Shown here piece by piece: positions 1-25,030 of a DNA stretch of 64,000 nucleotides. Source of the stretch: an uncultured Clostridia bacterium (lineage in GTDB: Bacteria; Bacillota; Clostridia; Oscillospirales; Ruminococcaceae); NCBI GenBank assembly GCA_947589185.1, contig CANQCK010000001.1, positions 1 to 64,000 on the forward strand, in the 5' to 3' direction. The translations under genes and the position numbers were made by a program. Each line of letters begins with the position of its first letter. Position 1 is the first letter of the stretch. The notes below the pieces were generated by a model, which worked only from the letters and a program-made list of their open reading frames with translations, had not been told where the DNA came from and searched no databases.

Positions 1-75
1 CCTCAATAGCTCAGTCGGTAGAGCGCGTGACTGTTAATCACGATGTCGCTGGTTCAAGTCCAGCTTGGGGAGCCA
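1..75 (+). tRNA. tRNA-Asn (GTT anticodon), first base outside window
   Basis: The sequence folds as a cloverleaf with D-arm, anticodon loop CTGTTAA (anticodon GTT, asparagine), T-arm with GGTTCAAGTCC, and an encoded 3' CCA at 73-75. The acceptor 3' strand TTGGGGA pairs with TCCTCAA, so the first base of the tRNA lies just before base 1. It is followed at once by a strong terminator. Its 3' end sits beside a foreign-looking AT-rich island, a common place for integration. Confidence 0.95.
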
Positions 76-80
76 ACTGA

Positions 81-131
81 ACAGAGGTCGTAATCTGAAC
101 CATAAGCGTTCGAATACGACCTCTGTTTTTA
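81..131 (+). terminator. strong intrinsic terminator of tRNA-Asn
   Basis: A perfect 12-bp stem (ACAGAGGTCGTA, 81-92, with 115-126) is followed by a T run. It starts six bases after the tRNA CCA end. Confidence 0.92.
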
Positions 132-147
132 TGTTTAACCTTTATTT

Positions 148-171
148 AAGCACCTTTACGGGTGCTTTTTT
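148..171 (+). terminator. second tandem terminator
   Basis: The 7-bp stem AAGCACC/GGTGCTT (148-154, 161-167) with a 6-base loop ends in a run of T. It backs up the tRNA terminator. Confidence 0.75.
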
Positions 172-567
172 CATTTTATTGATTCGTACAGTTAATCCAA
201 AACATCTCAAAGTTGAATACTAAAACGGCTAAAGTTATGTATTTGAACCATTAGTGTCCGGATCTTTTTCGCTTTTAATGGCTTGTCTACTTAGAAAATT
301 GGCTTCGGTTTTAAATTTAGAAAGTAATACTATTTATTAAATACTATTAGTAGATTTATAATATAATTTAATGGAAAAAAATATATAATATGTATATATT
401 ATAAATTTATAATTAAATTATATGTAAATATGATAATATTCGACAGCAATGTGTTATAATTTTATTATTAAAGTAATTAGATATTATTAGTATAAATAAA
501 GGGAAATGATTAAAGTTTTATCTTCTATTTATATTTTACAAGAATAACTTTGCAAGAAGGTATAATA
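172..567 (+). other. AT-rich intergenic stretch, no gene seen
   Basis: This stretch of about 400 bases is very AT-rich, especially from 320 onward, and holds no convincing open frame. The only site I can support is an extended -10 box at 452-460. The sharp fall in GC after about position 320 marks the left side of the putative island. Confidence 0.6.
452..460 (+). promoter_or_regulatory. extended -10 promoter for the island operon
   Basis: TGTTATAAT matches a TGn-TATAAT extended -10 element about 100 bases before the first island gene. No good -35 box lies 17 bases upstream, which an extended -10 can tolerate. Confidence 0.5.
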
Positions 568-1152
568 ATGAACAGTTTATTTGATTATGTAGAAAAAAAT
601 CCACAAATAGGTGCGGCAATTATCACAGCATGTTTTAGTTTTATAGGTGTGTTTTTAAACATTCTTATTAACATATATTTTAGAAATATTGACTATAAAA
701 ATAAAAACCGAATTAATTATATAAAAGTTTTAGAAAATTTTTATATACCATTGAAAACAAATTTGAATAAAATATATATAATTCTTTTAAAAATAAATAA
801 AGATGATTGTTGTAATATTTTTAAAGAAGCACAATATTTAAGTGATATAAAAAGCCTGAGAGAAAATACAGAGAATATAATAAATATAAATTCAATTAAT
901 ACAGAAAAATATATTAATGATTTTAAATTATTTATTTATCAAGAAAAGTGTTTAAAAGATATAAGGTTAATGCAAATAATTATAAATAAAAAAGATGCAA
1001 ATCAATTTGCAGAAAATTTGAATGGATTTATTCAAAATATTGAAATATTATTTAATCAAATTAAAATTCAAAGTTATAAAGTATTTTCAAACCATTATCT
1101 AATTTTTTTATTTAAAAGGTTTATTATTAGGAATAAAAAAGATAATATTTGA
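568..1152 (+). CDS. small one-helix membrane protein, unknown family
   Basis: This 194-residue protein starts at ATG 568 behind GAAGG (the in-frame TTG at 550 has no ribosome site). Residues about 15-37 form one hydrophobic helix (rich in I, A, F, V, L), followed by a basic, Asn/Ile/Lys-rich predicted helical cytoplasmic region. I do not recognise the family. It sits 32 bases upstream of a large P-loop NTPase gene in the same direction, so the two are probably co-transcribed. Base composition is far more AT-rich than the core genes of the window, consistent with transfer. A membrane effector or anchor partner of the NTPase is a guess from context. Confidence 0.72.
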   Translation: MNSLFDYVEKNPQIGAAIITACFSFIGVFLNILINIYFRNIDYKNKNRINYIKVLENFYIPLKTNLNKIYIILLKINKDDCCNIFKEAQYLSDIKSLRENTENIININSINTEKYINDFKLFIYQEKCLKDIRLMQIIINKKDANQFAENLNGFIQNIEILFNQIKIQSYKVFSNHYLIFLFKRFIIRNKKDNI

Positions 1153-1184
1153 ATTAAAAAACTCATAAAATAAGGAGAAAGCAT

Positions 1185-3425
1185 ATGTTACAAAATAATA
1201 TTCTAATTAAAACGGAAGAAATTGATAGTATGATGTTAGAGATAATTAAAGAAATCAAATCCGATGTTGAGACTGGTATTTTAAGATACTTACAAGCTAA
1301 TCCATATTCAAGTTTTCCTTTTTATAATTTTAATAAAATAATTAGCGAAAAAGGATTTAAAAAAGCATTTTTGTCTGAGAGTGAGACGGCAAAATTATAT
1401 AAAAAGAAATTTCTAGATATGTTACACACACCAAATGGCAAAAATACTTTTTTTATTGTGGGATATCAAGGTTGTGGGAAAACAACTTTCATACAATCGG
1501 TGGTTAGCGAATATAAAAATAATACAGAAGCCAATGTTTTGCTTATAGACTGTGATAAAAATCCTAAGAAAGTAAAAGAACAGGTTAAAAGTATATTTTG
1601 CAGTGAATTAATTACTTCAATCGATAATATTGATGACTATTGTGGGTTTATTAACTTTTTTAATAATAATTTACCAGTAATTAAAACATTTAATAACAAT
1701 ATAAAATTATTAGAGTTTTTTGAAATAATTAATAATTTACAAGTGAATATAGAATTGGATGAAACTAAAAAATTTATAGAATTGCATAATTTCATTTCTT
1801 CATTAGATTTCGTTGATGTATTGTATTTATTGTTTTTTTGGCACTTATCATTGCAGTATGAATCCGAAAAAAGAAGTAAATTACTATTTGTTATTGACAA
1901 TTTAGATTATATTGATGATTACAATGAATTAGTAACATTTATTGAAGGTATTGATGCGTTTACGATAGAGTTTTCAGATAAATTTTCACAACTAAAAGTA
2001 TATAAAAATACAAATAAAAGAATAGGATATATTGATAAAATAAAAATATTTATTTCAATGAGAGAGACAACAAGAGCTAATCTGCCATCCTCACATTTTT
2101 CTAACGCATTTAATAGTATTTATATTAGTGAAGATATGTCTGAATGGTACGATAAAAGTGCTATTATTGAAAAAAGACTTAAAACTTTAAAAGATTTTGA
2201 TAAGTATAATGAATTGGATACTATTATATATGATCAAATAGAATTAATATTAAGTATTATTAAAGATGACTATACAAAGCGTGTTATTTTTCCTTTGTTT
2301 AATAATAATTATCGCTCATGCATTACTATGTTAGTACGTGTTGTTATAAATAATCCGATACAGGTCAAGTCGTATAAATATCTAATGAGTTTAAACGAAC
2401 CAATGTTTAGACACGGAGCTAGAGGAATATTATTTAAACTTATTTTTGATAGATTTAGTTTGAATGATGGAAACGAAGAAAATTGTTTGAAAAAAATAGG
2501 TGTTTTAGACCTGTTAAATAGAGCAAATAAAGAAGTTAGTATATGTAGATTGCTATTATCTTATTTAAGTAACTATACTGAGACTAAATGTTCTTCTGCT
2601 CGTAATAGTGTTAGTATTAAAGATATTTTAGAAACATTCCAACATGTATTTAAAAAAGACGAAGTAGTTAAAATTCTATGGGAAATGTTTAACTTAAGAG
2701 ATACAGAATGGACACATTTAATATCCTTTAATCAAATAGAGTATTATGATAAAATTAAGAATAATGTAATTGAGATTAATAAATTAGATCCTGAAACTAC
2801 GTTATTACATTATAGCTGTGCAGGTAAAATTTATATAGAATATGTAACAACGCATTTTGAATTCTATTCAGTGCGAATCTTTAAAAATCTTGAAGCTGCT
2901 TTATTTAGTGATAAAAGTTTTATTTTTGATAAAGAAACGAATACCTATAAATTTTTTACGATTATCAATAAAGTATATTTACAAGTTAAAAGTTGTTGCG
3001 ATGAATTAATAAAATTTAACAAGAAATTGTGTAATCAGAGTAAATATGGAAACCCATATAAAAATTCAGAATTATATAAGGATTCACATTATGTTTGTCA
3101 ATTTAAAAGAAAAAACATTTATGGTGAAGAGAGAAGGTTTAAGCAATTTCATGAAGACCGAATAATTAATAGTCATATTGTATATATTGACGCATTCAGA
3201 ATTTATGTTCTAAACTATTGCAAATTAATTGATAAAAACCAGAAAGCCAAAATAAACGAAAGACTTACAGGTTATATAAAGAAATATGTTGATTTATTAG
3301 AAGACAAAAATATTTTAATAAATGAAAAGACTTCTAAAATATTATTATCACATTATAAAAAGCAAATAGAAAAACTTCAGAATAATTGGGATGATTTCAC
3401 AACAGAAATAAGTTATAATGAGTAA
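1185..3425 (+). CDS. large P-loop NTPase of unknown family, possible defence protein
   Basis: This 746-residue protein starts at ATG 1185 behind AAGGAG. It has a Walker A motif GYQGCGKTT at 93-101 and a Walker B-like strand LLFVIDNLDYID at about 233-244, whose DNLD pattern recalls STAND/ORC-type ATPases. A later strand KIFISMRETTR (about 286-296) could hold the sensor residue. Residues 1-85 precede the NTPase core, and some 440 residues follow it with no motif I know. There is no signal peptide. It lies in an AT-rich island next to tRNA-Asn, after a small membrane protein. Large ATPases with a short partner are common in anti-phage systems, but that function is inference. It could instead be a DNA-partitioning or regulatory ATPase. 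Confidence 0.85.
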   Translation: MLQNNILIKTEEIDSMMLEIIKEIKSDVETGILRYLQANPYSSFPFYNFNKIISEKGFKKAFLSESETAKLYKKKFLDMLHTPNGKNTFFIVGYQGCGKTTFIQSVVSEYKNNTEANVLLIDCDKNPKKVKEQVKSIFCSELITSIDNIDDYCGFINFFNNNLPVIKTFNNNIKLLEFFEIINNLQVNIELDETKKFIELHNFISSLDFVDVLYLLFFWHLSLQYESEKRSKLLFVIDNLDYIDDYNELVTFIEGIDAFTIEFSDKFSQLKVYKNTNKRIGYIDKIKIFISMRETTRANLPSSHFSNAFNSIYISEDMSEWYDKSAIIEKRLKTLKDFDKYNELDTIIYDQIELILSIIKDDYTKRVIFPLFNNNYRSCITMLVRVVINNPIQVKSYKYLMSLNEPMFRHGARGILFKLIFDRFSLNDGNEENCLKKIGVLDLLNRANKEVSICRLLLSYLSNYTETKCSSARNSVSIKDILETFQHVFKKDEVVKILWEMFNLRDTEWTHLISFNQIEYYDKIKNNVIEINKLDPETTLLHYSCAGKIYIEYVTTHFEFYSVRIFKNLEAALFSDKSFIFDKETNTYKFFTIINKVYLQVKSCCDELIKFNKKLCNQSKYGNPYKNSELYKDSHYVCQFKRKNIYGEERRFKQFHEDRIINSHIVYIDAFRIYVLNYCKLIDKNQKAKINERLTGYIKKYVDLLEDKNILINEKTSKILLSHYKKQIEKLQNNWDDFTTEISYNE

Positions 3426-3523
3426 GATAAAATACATATGTATTTGCAATGTCATTTAGAAATAATTATGCGTTAGTTCAAGTCCATATCGAAAAAATCT
3501 TTTTTGCTAAGTATTTACAATCG

Positions 3524-3558
3524 ACAAGCTAGGCAAACTATTTGTCTGGCTTGTTTTT
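3524..3558 (+). terminator. terminator after the island operon
   Basis: A 13-bp stem with two G-T pairs (3524-3536 with 3542-3554) is followed by TTTTT. It ends transcription of the two-gene island operon about 100 bases after the NTPase stop. Confidence 0.82.
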
Positions 3559-3717
3559 GTATCTATTGGCAGTCCGCTGTTAAAGTTGCTGAAGGCGGTT
3601 ATTTTTTTGCAACGGCGGGCTAATAAAATTGATAATTGATAATTATTGTAATAAGTAGGAAAGGAGACTTCTAGTTTCTTGCCTCTTATTTCTAGTAACT
3701 GATAGGGCGTTGCATCC
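3559..3717 (+). other. hairpin-rich intergenic DNA, possible mobile-element remnant
   Basis: No coding frame here is convincing. The stretch holds GC-rich short inverted pairs around T runs (CCGC/GCGG near 3572-3596, GTTGC/GCAAC near 3582-3617), a TTGATAATTGATAATTAT tract and an AAAGGAG box near 3660 with no start codon at the right distance. The texture differs from both the AT-rich island and the core genes. It may be a leftover leader of a lost element. Confidence 0.35.
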
Positions 3718-3750
3718 AATCCGCGTACTTAATAGTGCGTGGATTTTTTT
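3718..3750 (+). terminator. intrinsic terminator
   Basis: An 11-bp stem with G-T pairs (AATCCGCGTAC, 3718-3728, with 3735-3745), loop TTAATA, runs into TTTTTTT. No gene directly upstream explains it, so it may belong to a lost or untranslated transcript. From 3751 to 3944 I see only the leader of the next gene. Confidence 0.75.
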
Positions 3751-3944
3751 ATATCTCGCGTTAGCAATTACATCCTATTACACTATACATAAACTGTGGT
3801 CGGATTTGAAAAATAAATTTATTGAAATACATCTTACGACAAAAAAGTGCAGGTTGTGTCGAAATTCTTGATTATTCTAGATTAATAATATATCCTAAAT
3901 TTATGTGAATACAAAAATCACAGGGAGTTTAGGAGGATAAAAAA

Positions 3945-5906: not shown

Positions 5907-8252
5907 TTAGAGCTCAATAATTACCTTTCCGCCGAAGTTTGGAGTGATTTCTATTGACTTGTCAGTGCCTGCAACAGTAATTGTGAATGTAGAATCGATA
6001 TCAGTGTATTCACATTCAATTTTGCTGCCCTTTCTCTCAGCAGTAAGTTCAAATACCTTATTTGCTTCCTTATCATAAACAGGGCAAACAGCTGATTTGC
6101 CGTCTTCAAGGTTGTAGATTGTAAAGTTTGTTCCGTCAACATAATCGTATTCAAAATCACGCTCAAAGTTACCGAATGGAATAATTGAATTAGGTTTAGC
6201 AAGTGCAGGGATTTCAAAGTAATTACATTTATGTCTGTACCATTTACCGCCCTCAAGAGTTTTACCTGTGATTATGTCGGTCCATTTTCCTTCAGGAACA
6301 TAGTATTCAGCCATACCCTCGTCGTTAAGGATAGGAGCAACAAGAATATTGTCACCGAACATATACTGTCTGTCGAGAGTCAGGCAGGTTGGGTCATCAG
6401 CATAGTCGATAACCATAGCCCTCATCATAGGAACTCCTACATTGTGGGTTTTAATAGCCTGTGCAAAGATGTAAGGCATCAGCTTGCCTTTTAATTCGGT
6501 AAAGAATTTAAGAACATCACACGATTCCTCGTCGAACAGCCAAGGCACTCTGTAGCTTTGGTTTCCGTGAAGTCTTGAGTGAGTAGAGAACAGACCGAAT
6601 GCAGCCCATCTTTTGTAAATGTCAGGAGTAGCCGTAGCCTCAAAGCCGGACATATCGTGACTGAAGAAACCAAATCCCGATAATGAGAGTGAAAGTCCGC
6701 CTCTGATTGTCTCAGCCATAGAAGAATACTCAGCAGAGCAGTCGCCGCCCCAGTGAACAGGGAACTGCTGTCCTCCGGCTGTAGCAGAACGAGCAAACAA
6801 ACAAGCCTTATTCTCGCCGTAATAATCTTTAAGAACGTTGAACACAGTCTTGTTGTAAAGATGAGTGTAGAAGTTGTGCATCTTTATCGGGTCAGAACCG
6901 TCATAATAAACAATATCTTTTGTAGGTATTCTCTCACCGAAGTCGGTCTTAAAGCAGTCGACGCCCATATCGCAGAGAGCTTTCAGCTTTGAAGCATACC
7001 ACTCGCAGGCTGCCGGATTTGTGAAGTCGACAAGTGCCATACCCGGCTGCCATTCATCAGCCTGGAAAATGTCACCGTTTTTCTTTTTGACAAAGTAACC
7101 GTTTTCCATACCCTCGTCAAACAACTTAGAACGCTGTGCAATATACGGGTTGATCCAAACGCAGGTATGAAGTCCTTTCTCCTTGTGAAGACGCTCAAGC
7201 ATAGCAGGCGGGTCAGGGAACTGAGACTTATCCCATTCAAAGTTACACCATTCAAACTCTTTCATCCAAAAGCAGTCGAAATGGAATACCTGAAGCGGTA
7301 TATTTCTTTCAGCCATACCGTCAATGAAAGATGTTATTGTTTCTTCGTCATAGGTTGTTGTGAAAGAAGTCGTAAGCCACAGACCGAATGTATATGCAGG
7401 CGGAAGTGCAGGCTTTCCTGTAAGATTTGTATAACCTTCCAAAACATCTGTAAGATTTTCTCCGCCGAAAATAAAGTATTCAAGTTCTTCACCGGGAACG
7501 GTAAATGAAACCTTTGAAACTGTATCAGACGCAACCTCGTATGAAACCTTATCAGAACTGTTTACGAACACACCGTAGTTTCTCGAAGAAGTATAGAAAG
7601 GAATACTTTTATAGCTTTGGTCTGAACAGGTACCGCCGTCGGCGTTCCAAATCTCAACATTCTGACCGTTCTTAGTAAAAGTAGTGAATTTCTCACCAAA
7701 GCCGTAAATATATTCGCCTACTGAAAGCTGCAGCTGTTCACGGAGATATGTTGTGTGAGGATCCTGAGGATAGCTCCAGAATGTATCGTCCTCCTGTTTA
7801 GCAAGTCTTGCGTTAGCCTTAAACTGACTTTCTTTCACAAATGTTGTAGCTCTCCAAGCACCGCCGGTTAACAGCTTGTCGCCGTAGTAGTACTGAACGC
7901 TCCAGTTATCTTTGCTGATAACGACCTTTGTCTTACCTGTAATAAGCTCAACGCTGTTTTCATTTTCATTAATTACAGGCTTGTAGTCGTAATCCTCTTT
8001 AAGCTCAAAATGCGGTCCGTGGTCAACAGTACCTTTGTAGTGCGTGATGTGTACCTTAATGCAGTTCTCCATAGTTGAAGAGTATGTTATCTCAAGGTTT
8101 GGTCCGCCAAGTGTCATAGCTCTGTTGTAAATTTTTGAAGGCGTTGCTACGACCTTAATGGCATTTTCAGTTGTTTCGATAACATATGCCTCGTTGACAT
8201 AATTGACTTCGTATCCACGTTCAGTGAGCCAGAATCCATCTGAAAATTTCAT
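5907..8252 (-). CDS. yicI: GH31 alpha-xylosidase (YicI type)
   Basis: This 781-residue glycoside hydrolase family 31 enzyme removes alpha-xylose from xyloglucan oligosaccharides. The start lies behind AAAGGAGG. The N-terminal beta domain begins with a stretch typical of YicI (FSDGFWLTERGYEVNYV), and the barrel carries FHFDCFWMKEFEW. The expected nucleophile is Asp437 in KTDFGE and the acid/base Asp504 in HWGGDC. There is no signal peptide, so it acts in the cytoplasm on imported oligosaccharides. A GH3 beta-glucosidase is divergently transcribed next door, a logical partner for xyloglucan fragments. A strict alpha-glucosidase role is less likely given the YicI-like motifs. Confidence 0.92.
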   Translation of the reverse strand: MKFSDGFWLTERGYEVNYVNEAYVIETTENAIKVVATPSKIYNRAMTLGGPNLEITYSSTMENCIKVHITHYKGTVDHGPHFELKEDYDYKPVINENENSVELITGKTKVVISKDNWSVQYYYGDKLLTGGAWRATTFVKESQFKANARLAKQEDDTFWSYPQDPHTTYLREQLQLSVGEYIYGFGEKFTTFTKNGQNVEIWNADGGTCSDQSYKSIPFYTSSRNYGVFVNSSDKVSYEVASDTVSKVSFTVPGEELEYFIFGGENLTDVLEGYTNLTGKPALPPAYTFGLWLTTSFTTTYDEETITSFIDGMAERNIPLQVFHFDCFWMKEFEWCNFEWDKSQFPDPPAMLERLHKEKGLHTCVWINPYIAQRSKLFDEGMENGYFVKKKNGDIFQADEWQPGMALVDFTNPAACEWYASKLKALCDMGVDCFKTDFGERIPTKDIVYYDGSDPIKMHNFYTHLYNKTVFNVLKDYYGENKACLFARSATAGGQQFPVHWGGDCSAEYSSMAETIRGGLSLSLSGFGFFSHDMSGFEATATPDIYKRWAAFGLFSTHSRLHGNQSYRVPWLFDEESCDVLKFFTELKGKLMPYIFAQAIKTHNVGVPMMRAMVIDYADDPTCLTLDRQYMFGDNILVAPILNDEGMAEYYVPEGKWTDIITGKTLEGGKWYRHKCNYFEIPALAKPNSIIPFGNFERDFEYDYVDGTNFTIYNLEDGKSAVCPVYDKEANKVFELTAERKGSKIECEYTDIDSTFTITVAGTDKSIEITPNFGGKVIIEL

Positions 8253-8320
8253 AATTTTTCCTCCTTTAATATTTTATAAAGAAAATACTAACTAACCGTT
8301 CAGTATCTTCTGAATATCTT

Positions 8321-8353
8321 ATCAATGACAAAAATAATACTTTTGTCATTGAT
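8321..8353. promoter_or_regulatory. perfect palindrome in GH31 leader, candidate operator
   Basis: ATCAATGACAAAA (8321-8333) is repeated exactly inverted at 8341-8353 around a 7-base spacer. It overlaps the predicted start of the GH31 transcript and has no T run on either strand, so a repressor site is more likely than a terminator. Confidence 0.5.
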
Positions 8354-8356
8354 TAC

Positions 8357-8365
8357 ATTGTAGCA
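8357..8365 (-). promoter_or_regulatory. extended -10 promoter of GH31 gene
   Basis: On the minus strand TGCTACAAT is a TGn-extended -10 box about 105 bases upstream of the GH31 start. No clear -35 box is present. The predicted transcript start falls within the palindrome. Confidence 0.5.
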
Positions 8366-8484
8366 CAAATACTTATCGAATAATAGTCTATTTTTAACTT
8401 ATTTTTGTCAATTATTATCCAAAACAAAAGATGTATATTTTAATATTAAAGCAAAAAAATCATAGGCATAATGTTAAATACTTA

Positions 8485-8513
8485 TTGATTAAACTTCACT
8501 ATTGTGTTATAAT
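8485..8513 (+). promoter_or_regulatory. promoter of GH3 gene
   Basis: TTGATT (8485-8490), a 17-base spacer and TATAAT (8508-8513) preceded by TG at 8505 make a good extended promoter. The open frame could begin with TTG at 8513, but that lies on the -10 box, so translation must start downstream at ATG 8555. Confidence 0.75.
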
Positions 8514-8554
8514 TGACATCAAGAAAATTTATCCTTGCAGGGGGATCTAAAATA

Positions 8555-10828
8555 ATGAATATCGATAAAATACTCGAGGAAATGACTTTAGAAGAAAAGG
8601 CATCACTGTGTTCCGGAGAGGGATTTTGGCATACAAAACCGATTGAAAGACTTGATATACAAAAAATTATGATGTCAGACGGACCTCACGGGCTGAGAAA
8701 GGTAAACGAGGAAAGAGACTGTGTCACTGATGAAAGCATAGAAGCTGTTTGTTTTCCCACTGCATCGGCACTTGCGTGTTCGTTTGACAGAGACTTAATT
8801 GAAAAGCTGGGCAAAGCTCTGGGCGACGAGTGTCAGGCTGAGGGTGTAGCGGTGATATTAGGTCCCGGTGCAAATATAAAGCGGTCACCGCTGTGCGGCA
8901 GAAACTTTGAATACTTTTCTGAGGATCCTTATCTTTCAACTGAGATAGCGTCAGCGTATATCAAGGGAGTACAGTCAAGAGGCGTTGGAACGTCGCTCAA
9001 GCATTTTGCACTCAATAATCAGGAGAATAGAAGAATGAGTATTTCTGCTGAGGTTGATGAAAGAACTCTTCGCGAGATATATCTGGCATCTTTTGAAGGT
9101 GCGGTAAAGAATGCAAAGCCGTGGGCGGTTATGTGTTCATACAATAGGGTAAACGGCGTATATGCTTCTGAAAATCCGAAGCTTCTTTCAGATATTCTGC
9201 GTAACGAGTGGGGGTATAAAGGCCTTACGGTAAGCGACTGGGGAGCAGTAGATAACCGTGTAAACGGAATTAAGGCAGGTCTTGATTTAGAAATGCCTTC
9301 GTCGCAGGGCAAAAACGATAAATTTATTGTTGAGGCAGTAAGGCTTGGAAAACTGTATATAAAAGACGTTGACAAGTGCGTAAGACGAATTTTGGAACTT
9401 ATTGATAAATATGAAGACGGTAAAAAATCCAATGTTATTTGGGATAAGGAAAAACATCATAAGCTGGCGGCAAAAATCGAAAGCGAATGTATGGTACTGC
9501 TAAAAAATGAAGATAACATTCTTCCGCTTGATAGGAGCAAGAAAATCGCATTTATAGGTAAGTTTGCCGAATCTCCGCGTTATCAGGGCGGAGGAAGTTC
9601 ACATATTAATTCTTATAAGGTAACTTCGGCACTTAAAGCAGTAAAAGATATATGCAAAGTAACTTATGCTGAGGGTTATAAAATTGATGAGGATAAAACA
9701 GATGATAAACTATTGAGTGAAGCTGTTCAAGCGGCAAAGAACTGCGAAATTGCCGTTTTGTTTGTAGGTCTGCCTGATTTATTTGAATCGGAGGGATATG
9801 ACAGAAGTCATTTAAGGCTTCCCGAATGTCAGCTTGAGCTTATCAAAAAGGTGAGAGAAGTTAATGAAAACACTGTAGTTGTACTTCATAACGGTTCGGC
9901 AGTAGAGATGCCGTTTGCTGAAGATGTTAAGGGTATTCTTGAGGCGTATCTGGGAGGACAGGCGGTCGGTCAGGCAGAGGTTGACATTCTCTTTGGAAAG
10001 AAAAATCCATGCGGAAAGCTGGCTGAAACATTTCCTAGGAAATTAAGCGATAACCCGTCTTATCTGAATTTTCCCGGCGAGAGCGACAGGGTACGCTATC
10101 AGGAGGGAATATTCGTAGGCTACAGATATTATGACAAAAAGGAAATTGAACCGCTTTATCCGTTCGGATACGGTCTTAGCTATACTTCTTTTGAATATAA
10201 GAATATTGATATTTCAAAGAATGAGATGAACGACGATGAGGAGGTTACAGTTACTGTTACTGTAAAGAATACGGGAAAAGTCAAGGGCAAAGAAATAGTT
10301 CAGCTTTATGTAAGCAACGAACAGTCGAGTGTTATACGTCCGATAAAGGAGCTTAAAGGATTTGAAAAGGTAACGCTCAATCCGGGGGAAGAAAAGAAAA
10401 TAGTTTTTGTTCTTGACAAGCGTTCATTTGCATACTATAACACCGACATATCCGATTGGTATACCGAATACGGAAAATATAACATTCTTGTCGGAGCAAG
10501 CTCAAGAGATATAAGACTGAAAACGTATATATATGTTGCTCCAACGAACAAGATAAGAGTAGAGTATACGCTCAATAGTACAGGGGGCGACGTTATGTCT
10601 ACCGAGACTGGAAAAGAATTATTTAAAGAGTTTTTGAAAGATGTCAATGCAGGAATAAACAGCGGCTCGGATACAAGTGAAAGTGATGAACAAATGACAC
10701 TGGCTATGTATAATGAGCTTCCGCTCAGAGCTATGGTCAGCTTTTCCGACAATGAAAACTTGACAAGAGAAAAACTGAGTCAGCTGGTGAGAAGGCTGAA
10801 TATTGTAATTAACAGCGATTTATTTTAA
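8555..10828 (+). CDS. GH3 beta-glucosidase
   Basis: This 757-residue family 3 glycoside hydrolase starts at ATG 8555 behind CAGGGGG. The N-terminal barrel holds the nucleophile Asp228 in TVSDWGAV. The second alpha/beta domain contains QGGGSSHIN, and a fibronectin-like domain follows (GKEIVQLYVSNE to about residue 650). About 80 extra C-terminal residues have no clear match. There is no signal peptide, so it hydrolyses imported beta-glucosides in the cytoplasm. It is divergent from the GH31 alpha-xylosidase, and the two could together strip xyloglucan oligosaccharides. Substrate choice (glucose, xylose) cannot be set from motifs. Confidence 0.92.
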   Translation: MNIDKILEEMTLEEKASLCSGEGFWHTKPIERLDIQKIMMSDGPHGLRKVNEERDCVTDESIEAVCFPTASALACSFDRDLIEKLGKALGDECQAEGVAVILGPGANIKRSPLCGRNFEYFSEDPYLSTEIASAYIKGVQSRGVGTSLKHFALNNQENRRMSISAEVDERTLREIYLASFEGAVKNAKPWAVMCSYNRVNGVYASENPKLLSDILRNEWGYKGLTVSDWGAVDNRVNGIKAGLDLEMPSSQGKNDKFIVEAVRLGKLYIKDVDKCVRRILELIDKYEDGKKSNVIWDKEKHHKLAAKIESECMVLLKNEDNILPLDRSKKIAFIGKFAESPRYQGGGSSHINSYKVTSALKAVKDICKVTYAEGYKIDEDKTDDKLLSEAVQAAKNCEIAVLFVGLPDLFESEGYDRSHLRLPECQLELIKKVREVNENTVVVLHNGSAVEMPFAEDVKGILEAYLGGQAVGQAEVDILFGKKNPCGKLAETFPRKLSDNPSYLNFPGESDRVRYQEGIFVGYRYYDKKEIEPLYPFGYGLSYTSFEYKNIDISKNEMNDDEEVTVTVTVKNTGKVKGKEIVQLYVSNEQSSVIRPIKELKGFEKVTLNPGEEKKIVFVLDKRSFAYYNTDISDWYTEYGKYNILVGASSRDIRLKTYIYVAPTNKIRVEYTLNSTGGDVMSTETGKELFKEFLKDVNAGINSGSDTSESDEQMTLAMYNELPLRAMVSFSDNENLTREKLSQLVRRLNIVINSDLF

Positions 10829-11620: not shown

Positions 11621-12379
11621 TCATCTGTTAGAAATCATTTTACTCATATCATAGAGTCCGGCAGGCTTATTACTGATAAATATTGCCGCATTGACAGCAC
11701 CTACTGCAAAAACTTCTTTAGAGTGTGCCTCATGTTTAAGAGAAATTACCTCGTCACGCCCTGCGAAAATAATCTCATGCTCGCCGACTATTGTTCCGCC
11801 TCTGATTGCGTGCATACCGATTTCGGTTTTAGAACGCTTTTTTCTAATTGAATGACGGTCGTAAGTCAGAGAATAGTTGTTGCCAAGCTCCTCGTTAATT
11901 GCTTCAGAAAGCATAATTGCTGTTCCAGACGGAGCGTCGATTTTCTGATTGTGGTGCTTTTCTACAATTTCAATATCAAATTGACCGCCTAGTATTTGAG
12001 TTGCTTTTTTAGCAAGCTGTGCTAAAAGGTTTATCCCCAGCGACATATTGAACGTGAAAAATACAGGTATCTGTGATGATGCCTTTTTTATTTTTGCAAT
12101 TTGATCGTCTGTATAGCCTGTTGTGGCAATAACTAAAGGAGTACCGTTTGTCTGACAATAATCCAAAAGCTCATCTAAAACGCTCGGGTGAGAAAAATCA
12201 ATAATCACATCAGGCTTTACTCTCATATCAGAGACCCTTGATACTATTGGAAAATCGGAATATGTATCTGTTATCTTATCTATACCTGCAGTAATTACGC
12301 AATCATCCCTTGAAGAAACGACATCAAAGATAACTTTTCCCATTTTACCGTTAGCACCGCATACAGCAATATTTGTCAT
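11621..12379 (-). CDS. dapB: 4-hydroxy-tetrahydrodipicolinate reductase DapB
   Basis: The 252-residue enzyme reduces the DapA product with NAD(P)H on the way to diaminopimelate and lysine. The nucleotide-binding motif GANGKMG is at 8-14 and the family signature EKHHNQKIDAPSGTA at 140-154, with the catalytic histidines and lysine present. ATG 12379 is chosen because AAAGGA lies nine bases upstream; the in-frame TTG at 12397 overlaps that site. It is the third gene of asd-dapA-dapB, under the lysine riboswitch. A small hairpin with a short T tail at 12399-12419 may reduce its expression. Confidence 0.96.
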   Translation of the reverse strand: MTNIAVCGANGKMGKVIFDVVSSRDDCVITAGIDKITDTYSDFPIVSRVSDMRVKPDVIIDFSHPSVLDELLDYCQTNGTPLVIATTGYTDDQIAKIKKASSQIPVFFTFNMSLGINLLAQLAKKATQILGGQFDIEIVEKHHNQKIDAPSGTAIMLSEAINEELGNNYSLTYDRHSIRKKRSKTEIGMHAIRGGTIVGEHEIIFAGRDEVISLKHEAHSKEVFAVGAVNAAIFISNKPAGLYDMSKMISNR

Positions 12380-12398
12380 AAATATTAGTCCTTTCAAG

Positions 12399-12419
12399 AA
12401 AAGGCAGATAATTTCCGCC
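12399..12419 (-). terminator. weak hairpin between dapA and dapB
   Basis: On the minus strand GGCGGA/TCTGCC (6 bp) is followed by TTTT. This could be a leaky terminator or an RNA processing hairpin. Confidence 0.35.
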
Positions 12420-12439
12420 CTCTTTAATTTTCAAATCAC

Positions 12440-13330
12440 TTATTTTACAAGTCCGATTTTTTGCATTTGTGCTCTCAGCTTATCAATTTTAGTTTGAGGC
12501 ATTTTGCAAAGAGGCAGTCTGCATTCACCAACTTCAAATCCCATAATATTAAGAGCCTCCTTAACAGGAATTGGATTTACGTCCATAAACAATCCGTTTG
12601 TAAATTCCAAAAGCTTAAGGGCAAGCTGAGACGCTTCTTCGTATTTATTCTCAAAGCAGAGCTCGCAAATATCGTGAGTTTCCTTTGGCATACAGTTCGA
12701 CAATACAGAGATAACGCCCTTTCCTCCGAGTGAGAGAATAGGAATAATCTGATCGTCGTTACCGCTGTAAACGTCCAAATCGTCACCGCAGGCAGCACGA
12801 ATCTGAGCAACTCTTGAAATGTCTCCGCTGGCTTCTTTAATGGCGGCTATGTTTTTGTGTTTTGAAAGTTCAACACAGGTTGAAACAGCAATATTTGTTC
12901 CTGTTCTTGAAGGAACATTATATGCAATGATTGGAATATTAACAGCGTTTGCAATAGCGTAGTAGTGCTTGATCAAACCCTCCTGCGAGCATTTATTGTA
13001 ATAAGGAGTAACCACAAGCAAAGCGTCAGCACCTTGTTCTTCTGCGTGTTTTGAAAGGGCAACTGCATATTTTGTGTCATTAGAGCCTGTTCCTGCAATA
13101 ACGGGAATTCTGCCCGCAGCTTTTTTTATAGCGTAAGTTATGCAGTCCTGATGCTCTTTATCTGTCATAGTAGCACTTTCACCTGTTGTTCCGCAGATGA
13201 TAATAGCGTCAGTGTGATTTTCAATATTAAATTCAATAAGCTCGCCCAGCTTGTCAAAATTAATAGAGCCGTCTTCGTTCATAGGTGTGATAATGGCAAC
13301 TCCTGCACCTGTGAAAATTGTCTTTTTCAT
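12440..13330 (-). CDS. dapA: 4-hydroxy-tetrahydrodipicolinate synthase DapA
   Basis: This 296-residue aldolase-fold enzyme condenses pyruvate with aspartate semialdehyde. The Schiff-base lysine is Lys165 in AAIKEASGD, Tyr137 lies in IIAYNVPSRTG, and the CGTTGE loop is at 46-51. AAAGGAG precedes the start. It is the middle gene of the operon that follows the lysine riboswitch; Asd upstream makes its substrate and DapB downstream takes its product. Confidence 0.97.
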   Translation of the reverse strand: MKKTIFTGAGVAIITPMNEDGSINFDKLGELIEFNIENHTDAIIICGTTGESATMTDKEHQDCITYAIKKAAGRIPVIAGTGSNDTKYAVALSKHAEEQGADALLVVTPYYNKCSQEGLIKHYYAIANAVNIPIIAYNVPSRTGTNIAVSTCVELSKHKNIAAIKEASGDISRVAQIRAACGDDLDVYSGNDDQIIPILSLGGKGVISVLSNCMPKETHDICELCFENKYEEASQLALKLLEFTNGLFMDVNPIPVKEALNIMGFEVGECRLPLCKMPQTKIDKLRAQMQKIGLVK

Positions 13331-13375
13331 AAATGATTACTCCTTTCACGAGTAAAATTTTATTAATAATTAACA

Positions 13376-14455
13376 TTAATCAAAATAACCCTTTGCAGCA
13401 AGTAACTCCGCTAAAAGAACCCCGCCTCCTGCTGCACCTCTTAACGTGTTGTGAGACAGGCAAACGAACTTATAGTCAAACAGCTTATCCTCTCTTAGTC
13501 TTCCGAGAGTGACTGCCATTCCGCCCTCTAAATCTCTGTCCAATTTAGGCTGAGGTCTGTTATCCTCTTCAAAATAATTCAAAAACTGCTTAGGAGCAGA
13601 CGGAAGTTCAAGCTCCTGAGGAACACCACTGAACTCTTTCCAAGCTTTAAGTATTTCCTCCTTAGAGGGCTTTTTTTCAAATGATACGAACACTGCCGCC
13701 GTGTGACCGTCTTGAACAGGCACTCTCAAGCATTGTGTAGTAATGCAAGGAGTTTTAGCGTCAACGATTCTGTCGCCGTCGATTTTTCCCCATACCTTTA
13801 AAGGCTCAATTTCAGACTTTTCCTCCTCACCGCCGATATAGGGTATTACATTATCAACAATATCAGGAAAAGTCTCAAAGGTTTTTCCTGCACCGCTTAT
13901 AGCTTGATATGTGCAGGCAAGAACATTTTTAACTCCGTACTTCATAAGCGGATGCAAAGCAGGTACATAGCTTTGAATAGAGCAGTTAGATTTAACTGCA
14001 ATAAAGCCACGCTTTGTACCTAGTCTTTTCCTCTGAGCGTTTATTATCTCAATGTGCTCAGGATTTATCTCAGGAACGACCATCGGAACGTCAGGGGTAT
14101 GCCTGTTTGCCGAGTTGTTTGAAACTACCGGACATTCTGCCTTTGCGTATGCTTCTTCTAATGCTCTTATTTCGTCCTTTTTCATATCTACGGCACAGAA
14201 CACAAAGTCTACCATACCTGCGATTTTTTCAATGTCTTCAGCTGCATCGAGAATAATCATATTCTGCATTTTCTTAGGCATTGGAGTAGGCATTGCCCAC
14301 CTTTCACCTACAGCGTCTTTATAGCCTTTTCCCGCTGAGCGAGGCGAAGCGGCAAGACATTCAACCTCAAACCAGGGATGATTTTCAAGTAAAGTTGCAA
14401 ATCTTTGTCCCACCATACCTGTTGCACCGATTATTCCCACTTTGAATTTTCTCAT
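13376..14455 (-). CDS. asd: aspartate-semialdehyde dehydrogenase
   Basis: The 359-residue enzyme makes aspartate semialdehyde from aspartyl phosphate. It belongs to the longer archaeal/fungal-like Asd branch, with NADP-binding GATGMVGQR at 10-18 and catalytic Cys158 in SNCSIQS. A GGAGG box precedes the start. It is the first gene after the lysine riboswitch and terminator at 14577-14822, so supply of aspartate semialdehyde is switched by lysine; no aspartokinase gene is visible in the window. Confidence 0.96.
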   Translation of the reverse strand: MRKFKVGIIGATGMVGQRFATLLENHPWFEVECLAASPRSAGKGYKDAVGERWAMPTPMPKKMQNMIILDAAEDIEKIAGMVDFVFCAVDMKKDEIRALEEAYAKAECPVVSNNSANRHTPDVPMVVPEINPEHIEIINAQRKRLGTKRGFIAVKSNCSIQSYVPALHPLMKYGVKNVLACTYQAISGAGKTFETFPDIVDNVIPYIGGEEEKSEIEPLKVWGKIDGDRIVDAKTPCITTQCLRVPVQDGHTAAVFVSFEKKPSKEEILKAWKEFSGVPQELELPSAPKQFLNYFEEDNRPQPKLDRDLEGGMAVTLGRLREDKLFDYKFVCLSHNTLRGAAGGGVLLAELLAAKGYFD

Positions 14456-14602: not shown

Positions 14603-14653
14603 TCATCATACAATATAATAGAAATGTTGACATATATAATGACAAATATATGC

Positions 14654-14822
14654 CGATAGCACTCCATCATACTTTATGATGACAATTACATGCCTTTTAA
14701 GCGTGCAATCAGAAATAAGCTTTCCCAACACTTAATTCTTCGGCAGCATCACCTTTCACACTTTCTGACCGGGAAGCCTTTTAATTATGAAAATGCTAAT
14801 AATTTCAGCCGCACCTCTATCG
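14654..14822 (-). ncRNA. lysine riboswitch (L-box)
   Basis: Read on the minus strand the leader has AGAGGTGCG, then GTGAAAGGTGATGCTGCCGAAG, split here as GTGAAAGGTGATG and CTGCCGAAG, and finally GATGGAGTGCTATCG. These match the order of conserved blocks in L-box leaders such as Bacillus lysC. CGATAG (14817-14822) pairs with CTATCG (14654-14659) to close helix P1. Lysine binding should favour the terminator at 14577-14602 and shut down asd-dapA-dapB. Confidence 0.93.
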
Positions 14823-14833
14823 TTTCTACAATT

Positions 14834-24786: not shown

Positions 24787-24799
24787 AACTTTAAACATT

Positions 24800-25030
24800 A
24801 TGACTGAGAGAGTAGGTTTGTGGTACAGCTTTCAGAGAGGGAATGTCTGCTGAAAAATTCCTAAGCGAGATCAGACTGAAGTTCACTCACGAGTGGTTCT
24901 GCCGAAGTTTTTATTGTAAGCAGAAACGGATTTTGAAACCGTTAAAATTCAAAGGAGTGTTGGCTCTTTTAACCTTTAGGTGGTATAGCAAGATACAGTC
25001 TTGTCCTGATAGGGATAAGGCTTTTTTATT
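24800..25030 (+). ncRNA. phenylalanine T-box leader with terminator
   Basis: The leader has GAGAGAGTAGG, distal stem I with AGAGAGGGAATG and GCTGAAAAATTCC, and the specifier codon TTC (24882-24884) followed by purine, so it reads uncharged tRNA-Phe. The T-box AGGTGGTATAGC (24978-24989) carries TGGT to pair with the tRNA 3' ACCA end. The terminator stem 24997-25006 with 25013-25022 ends in TTTTTT. Uncharged tRNA-Phe would favour the antiterminator and expression of pheST. Confidence 0.93.

Follow-up and report, generated by a model that had tools for sequence, protein, structure and literature searches.

The stretch of DNA analyzed here, called the window throughout, comprises the 64,000 nucleotides with which contig CANQCK010000001.1 (our C1) of an uncultured gut bacterium of the Ruminococcaceae begins (assembly GCA_947589185.1; genome size, 1.9 Mb). 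Near its left end, directly behind a tRNA-Asn gene, lies a mobile segment with two genes on the same strand, one encoding a small membrane protein (P0001) and the other a large ATPase (P0002), and this pair is the subject of the present work. The two genes are separated by 32 bases, and a purine-rich stretch precedes either ATG. The features of the locus are as follows (coordinates are those of the window; bp, base pairs; aa, amino acids; TM, transmembrane).

1 to 75, forward strand: tRNA-Asn gene (GTT), its first base lost at the contig end; the insertion point lies directly 3' of its CCA (Rfam RF00005, 62.7 bits)
76 to 3519, no strand assigned: inserted segment carrying the module, 3444 bp, ends uncertain by 1 to 2 bases; the site is empty in the congener G646
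79 to 128, forward strand: strong hairpin with T tail, located at the segment's left end (RNA fold -26.9 kcal/mol, z -6.7)
568 to 1152, forward strand: gene for P0001, 194 aa, with one N-terminal TM helix (about residues 16 to 34) followed by a helical part; proposed effector
1185 to 3425, forward strand: gene for P0002, 746 aa, predicted ATPase of STAND/ORC-Cdc6 type; proposed sensor and assembly platform
1461 to 1487, forward strand: Walker A motif GYQGCGKTT (residues 93 to 101); GxxGxGKTT in 9 of the 9 aligned rows that cover the motif
1551 to 1871, forward strand: variable helical insert (residues 123 to 229) between strand 2 and Walker B, in the place of the RdrA crown; helices at 133 to 223 in the model
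1884 to 1907, forward strand: Walker B region FVIDNLD (residues 234 to 241), in which D238 and D241 are unchanged in all 11 rows
2061 to 2063, forward strand: Arg293, last residue of the fourth core strand (286 to 293) and invariant; candidate sensor-1 or arginine-finger residue
3471 to 3519, forward strand: right end of the segment, CGTTAG...GCTAAGTATTTACA, resembling the right ends of short modules after tRNA genes in the genus
3523 to 3555, forward strand: terminator hairpin that belongs to the tRNA-Asn locus as it was before the insertion and is not part of the module

An earlier note, made from the letters of the window and a list of its open reading frames (ORFs), had described two adjacent ORFs that stand beside a tRNA gene, are far more AT-rich than the remainder of the window, and end in a clear terminator. 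Both ORFs are indeed present at 568 to 1152 and 1185 to 3425, and their GC contents of 0.173 and 0.241 compare with 0.366 across positions 3520 to 64000, where the minimum among 286 sliding windows of 3444 bp is 0.326. The neighboring tRNA-Asn gene was detected by Rfam and not by ARAGORN (the window starts one base inside the gene), and complete copies are found in the congeners G646, G1380, G1385, and G1386. The terminator has to be reassigned: in G646, a sequence 93% identical to the hairpin at 3523 to 3555 directly follows the CCA of tRNA-Asn, and the hairpin therefore lies outside the insertion and belongs to the tRNA-Asn locus, which rules it out as the module's own terminator.

The same congener provides the empty site. 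Its tRNA-Asn CCA is joined at once to the sequence that begins at window position 3520, and 76 to 3519 is therefore a discrete insertion. The segment is mobile, as seen from this empty site together with a copy that has other flanks: window positions 78 to 3519 correspond to 6076 to 9517 of locus L052 in the congener G1386 at 99.88% identity, with 4 mismatches in 3442 positions and no gaps. Three of these mismatches precede the first ATG and the fourth falls on a third codon position (1865), and recent transfer between species would be the simplest reading of so near-identical a copy. In G1380, too, the hairpin at 79 to 128 occurs downstream of tRNA-Asn. None of the ORFs of the segment is a recombinase or replication gene, and an 11-base match near the right end that resembles a tRNA T arm was not used as an att repeat, since it stops short of the junction.

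P0002 carries both a Walker A motif at residues 93 to 101 and a DNLD Walker B motif, as the note had read, and both are conserved across its relatives. These were compared in an alignment of 11 rows (A4), from which the identical L052 copy, an ATPase piece at locus L057, and the G491 sequence were left out and in which locus L060 is represented by its second reading frame only. The note's statement that the protein belongs to no recognized family holds in substance: Pfam matches are local to the P-loop, with NPHP3_N alone above its cut-off (29.5 versus 24.8 bits), and PADLOC gave no match below an E value of 0.018 for P0002 and none at all for P0001. In degree of conservation, the C-terminal half is similar to the Walker B portion of the core, and it contains the invariant residues W509, H557, E559, R564, R659, Y667, and R672, while the helical insert is the least conserved of eight regions, with a mean pairwise identity of 0.18 versus 0.34 for residues 546 to 620.

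Structure prediction, one of the checks that the note had proposed, gave a good model that resembles ORC/Cdc6, RdrA, and STAND proteins. Built from the 11 rows (predicted local distance difference test [pLDDT], 77.9; predicted template modeling score [pTM], 0.80), it has core strands at residues 88 to 93, 117 to 122, 233 to 238, 286 to 293, and 313 to 317, helices N-terminal to this core, the helical insert between the second and third of these strands, helices at 324 to 425, and a winged-helix-like helix-strand pattern at 478 to 543. A Foldseek search of the PDB returned 25 chains at an E value of ≤0.001, namely, 21 ORC/Cdc6 chains, 2 RdrA chains, and 2 Apaf-1 or apoptosome chains, with E values starting at 1.6e-5 for ORC/Cdc6, followed by 5.5e-5 for RdrA (8hra), 2.1e-4 for Apaf-1, and, outside this group, 1.8e-3 for CED-4; among viral structure models, the ATPase had no match at the same threshold. 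From this model, we predict that P0002 belongs to the AAA+ ATPases of the STAND/ORC-Cdc6 type.

Members of this ATPase family are rare but occur in four phyla. Long matches were found in 2 of 394 genomes of the order (the window's own and G388), 2 of 297 of the family (own and G491), 1 of 391 of the class and 1 of 299 of the phylum (own in both), 1 of 71 of the genus of G388 (G388 itself), and 3 of 15 of the window's genus (own, G1386, and G1388); in view of its presence in just these 3 congeneric genomes, a housekeeping ATPase was rejected. A pattern scan of a collection of 84,980 species, which finds carriers of either of two short motifs and thus gives a lower bound, yielded 12 loci, from Clostridia, Ruminococcaceae/Oscillospiraceae, Schaedlerella, Roseburia, Bacillales, Coriobacteriaceae, Treponema, and a Chitinispirillales record. 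The window and G491 bring the total to 13 genomes; L053 and L057 belong to one genome (UBA7080), and L052, L056, and L059 are G1386, G1388, and G388, respectively. Short P-loop matches were discounted as relatives (8 of 10 matching genomes in one sample, 2 of 4 in a second, and 61 of 62 in a third), as was G1269, one of two matching genomes, where a C-terminal match lies in a long frame that by eye resembles a DinG-type helicase and reaches no more than 7 bits against the 11-row profile. Some family members are broken: the UBA7080 ATPase gene is divided between two contigs (L057, 10001 to 11094, and L053, 1 to 1778) with unrelated sequence after the L057 break, reflecting rearrangement or misassembly, and the Bacillales ATPase (L060, 8755 to 11036) lies in two reading frames, as does the phosphorylase-like partner gene of S32_Bin2 (L062, 1585 to 2624), either as decayed genes or through assembly error.

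In all 13 genomes the ATPase has an adjacent or fused partner, and these partners are of three kinds. TM proteins occur in seven genomes (the window and L052, which have the same protein, UBA7080 [L057/L053], L054, L055, where the gene lies downstream, L056, and L060), phosphorylase-like (PNP-like) proteins in four (L061, L062 with its broken frame, L063, and G491), and an HD-CE domain fused to the ATPase in two (L058 and L059/G388; E values, 6.6e-26 and 1.1e-26). The HD-CE assignment is strong, whereas that of the PNP-like partners draws on weak matches, among them those to the PADLOC model PDC-M60C (E values, 5.4e-13, 2.9e-8, and 3.6e-6). In a tree of the ATPases, which includes G491, the PNP rows form one clade with 100/100 support, and the HD-CE rows cluster with L055, L056, and L060, all of the TM type, with moderate support (88/92). 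Since the HD-CE rows thus fall among TM rows and a single TM group is seen in just 1% of 200 bootstrap trees, the partner was most likely swapped while the ATPase stayed the same. Regarding the co-occurrence of the pair, which the note had proposed to examine, homologues of the small partner persist over distances that reach a Chitinispirillales genome; elsewhere, other conflict-type partners take its place, and next to the ATPases of the PNP-like and HD-CE branches no homologue of it was recognized.

P0001 contains one hydrophobic segment, at residues 16 to 34, and its low-confidence model is all-helical. Homologues of P0001 stand beside the ATPase in L057 and L054 (E values, 8.6e-18 and 4.1e-8), and homology among the TM partners is solid for these three closest lineages only, that is, the window, L057, and L054; the partners in L056 and L060 share with P0001 only the layout of an N-terminal TM segment and an adjacent gene on the same strand. 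One TM helix is found in five of the six partner sequences and two in that of L060. All five one-TM partners carry net negative charge before the helix and net positive charge after it, which makes an N-out/C-in orientation likely.

Several family members lie near genes of defense or conflict systems. Mrr (E value, 1e-16) is a neighbor in L058, a CAP12/PCTIR TIR protein (4e-36) in L062, GAP1-N1 (7e-28) in L063, and PDC-S32 (2.5e-12) in L060. Genes of mobility were found as well, namely, serine recombinases (G388, L062, and L063, the last two by eye), an integrase (L057), and a coupling protein of a type IV secretion system (L055), and an IS200-type transposase gene lies downstream of the shared segment in L052. 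At the other side of that copy, a complete IetAS system (L052, 2414 to 5823; PADLOC E values, 4e-139 and 1e-256) ends 252 bp upstream of the shared segment. In L061, a gene for a 414-aa protein with a CyanoTRADDas-type 2TM domain (12309 to 13553; E value, 4e-10) follows the PNP-ATPase pair after about 50 bp and is perhaps a third component.

Our results lead us to propose, with somewhat more confidence than doubt, that the two genes form a mobile conflict system of two components, most likely acting against phages by abortive infection, with the membrane protein as one among several effectors that can replace each other. The data support the arrangement in two genes, the likely membrane topology, and the mobility of the segment, and a role in defense is suggested by genomic context and by the change of partners. 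A cue from the invader, which the conserved C-terminal part might read, would lead to ATP-dependent assembly of the ATPase, which might bind its partner through the fast-varying insert or the N terminus; the assembly would then cluster the membrane protein, so that the membrane is permeabilized or depolarized and the infected cell is stopped. The model for such docking is RdrA, whose crown, a helical bundle replacing alpha2, makes nearly all contacts with RdrB (PMC9994260). By analogy, the insert of P0002 may be a partner-binding surface, for which low conservation would be expected. The note's own picture of a mobile, cotranscribed pair of small membrane protein and STAND/ORC-like ATPase gains support from the empty site, the near-identical copy, and the predicted fold, and the two outcomes that it had named as speaking against it, a match to a housekeeping family or an ATPase that never keeps the small partner or a mobile context, did not appear.

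Several points weigh against this interpretation. Whole-chain template modeling scores are low (0.17 to 0.25 in the top 25 chains), and therefore the AAA+ part alone is firmly placed. The sequence profile match to RdrA (E value, 4.4e-5 over about 135 residues around the P-loop) is not specific, as an ABC protein slightly outscores it (3.3e-5) and a shikimate kinase does likewise in another search. The model of P0001 is poor (pLDDT, 54.7), and pore formation is therefore without structural support. Homology of the L055 partner to P0001 is borderline (14.1 bits versus 13.4 for the best decoy), and that of the L056 and L060 TM partners is not demonstrable. The PNP assignment is weak, with PF01048 matching one protein at an E value of 0.016, below the cut-off, and the single PNP-like protein searched had no PDB match. 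In the tree, the 88/92 branch lies below the 95/80 mark of the tree tool, L060 is a long branch, and the strongly supported branches alone are compatible with a single TM group. No relative was found in viral contigs, plasmids, or phages (searched with the window ATPase, with alignments for the viral contigs, and with two other members for the plasmids). The note had proposed to look for the pair near known defense genes elsewhere, and several members do lie near such genes; the neighbors for scanning were chosen by hand with no background rate for comparison, so that the context is supportive and not quantitative, and within it the AbiH match in L060 covers 40 residues only and a TIR-like PADLOC match in the same locus has no Pfam counterpart.

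The conservation of the C-terminal half and the predicted winged-helix-like stretch would also suit a different arrangement, in which the membrane protein is a tether or an antitoxin-like regulator that holds the ATPase at the membrane and the C-terminal region of the ATPase is toxic or handles nucleic acid; ORC/Cdc6 proteins bind DNA. We consider this unlikely, as the ATPase showed no match to a nuclease or another catalytic family, and the replacement of the TM partner by an HD-CE fusion or a PNP-like protein suits an effector better. The same PNP-like or HD-CE partners, present in 6 of the 13 genomes, could instead point to defense via nucleotide signaling, with the membrane protein answering a nucleotide or metabolite signal and not physical contact. 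The 2TM protein directly after the L061 pair would fit such a scheme, as would the 2TM SLATT genes that adjoin PNPase and other nucleotide-related effectors in GAP1-N1 systems according to PMC7159879; a nucleotide-making enzyme was not recognized within the window's inserted segment, so that the ATPase itself would have to make the signal. We hold the idea to be quite improbable. We give little credence to a role outside defense, be it as a module for maintenance or addiction within an integrative element or as selfish cargo kept by linkage. The mobility of the segment and the recombinase, integrase, transposase, or conjugation genes beside several relatives would suit it; against it, none of the segment's own ORFs is a recombinase or replication gene, and the L052 copy lies so close to a complete IetAS system.

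Beyond the two-component conflict system itself, we tentatively raise a wider possibility, doubtful as it is, that a previously undescribed family of ORC/Cdc6-STAND immune ATPases is a common assembly platform which, as in RADAR, exchanges unrelated effectors (a one-helix membrane protein, a nucleosidase-like enzyme, and an HD-CE phosphohydrolase) and which in this genus may travel without its own integrase as a cassette placed exactly behind a tRNA CCA in an integron-like array of hairpin modules with a common right end. At 14 of the 17 tRNA genes compared (Asn, Leu, Gln, Arg, and Pro), a short hairpin module of one of a few types begins precisely at the CCA, a count biased by the fact that these loci were fetched because they matched (window 76 to 3770 and, from congeners and the window's own genome, L093, L095, L099, L103, L105, L106, and L109 to L116). 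Often these modules terminate in a sequence like CGTTAG...TTTACA, and in some cases they form head-to-tail stacks (L113). This array looks like a tRNA-anchored cassette system, and the ends of the defense segment are of the same kind. Against the cassette idea, the exact right-end pattern has no match in the window's own genome and 7 matches in 4 of 15 genomes (reversed control, 0), the right end in the window does not match it exactly, and the 11-base sequence AAGTATTTACA, allowing ≤1 mismatch, is no commoner in the window than by chance (5 versus 3.3 expected). Recombination between tRNA copies and module ends could also place the segment.

Elsewhere in the window, Rfam identified a lysine riboswitch (14649 to 14827, reverse strand) upstream of asd-dapA-dapB-like genes and a T-box leader (24791 to 25011, forward strand) upstream of pheS/pheT-like genes, the gene names being assigned by eye.

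If the proposed conflict system is real, one immune ATPase family would serve three unrelated kinds of effector, and both sensing and effector drive would become testable by partner exchange. It would also extend the RADAR-like ORC/Cdc6 branch of immunity to membrane-acting effectors, and the exact insertion at the tRNA CCA together with the module-like ends hints at a possible unrecognized route for small defense islands.

Among known systems, RADAR (RdrA-RdrB) shares with the pair a large ORC/Cdc6-STAND AAA+ ATPase with a helical insert replacing alpha2, an alpha-helical C terminus, and a separate effector gene. The spacing from Walker A Lys to Walker B Asp is 139 in both P0002 (K99-D238) and Escherichia coli RdrA (K82-D221; PMC9994260). 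This spacing varies within the ATPase family. In RADAR, the ATPase docks as a heptameric ring on its partner by way of the crown. In contrast to RADAR, no adenosine deaminase was recognized beside the ATPases in the neighborhoods read (by eye for most ORFs), the partners being TM, PNP-like, or HD-CE proteins, and no RADAR model appeared among the PADLOC matches of the 11 ATPase rows; RADAR proper is thereby ruled out. The PADLOC library presumably includes models of both RADAR and Avs.

The pair also resembles STAND conflict systems (Avs/AVAST and the iSTAND and vWA systems of PMC7159879) in its STAND-type ATPase, its changing effectors, and its location near conflict genes. It differs from them in that the effector is usually a separate gene, HD-CE excepted, and in that no TPR-type sensor was recognized; Avs is ruled out, with no Avs model among the PADLOC matches and a 746-aa ATPase that has a separate partner gene. 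BREX BrxC/BrxD belong to the same ORC/Cdc6 AAA+ clade and have a helical insert after strand 2; BrxC is followed by a winged helix-turn-helix (PMC12839542). Unlike in BREX, neither PglZ nor another BREX gene was recognized by eye beside the pair, and the profile match to the BrxC-BrxB chain in the PDB reached an E value of 0.068 only. The mad8 model of MADS matches 4 of the 11 ATPase rows (best E value, 1.1e-5), in contrast to an E value of 0.028 over 38 P-loop residues for the window ATPase, and no other MADS gene was recognized. SLATT and other small TM effectors likewise place a small membrane protein with a helical soluble part beside a conflict NTPase, but most of the TM partners described above have one TM helix and not two, P0001 has no Pfam SLATT match, and its single TM helix rules SLATT out. 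KAP NTPases (PF07693 matches 1 of the 11 rows, E value 5e-5) are ruled out by the top 19-residue hydropathy, 1.53 for P0002 and at most 1.69 across the 11 rows, which leaves no TM segment in the ATPase. We recognized no paper on this gene pair in searches of open-licence papers, and it is apparently an undescribed variant, with exchangeable partners, within a known kind, the STAND/ORC-Cdc6 immune ATPases.

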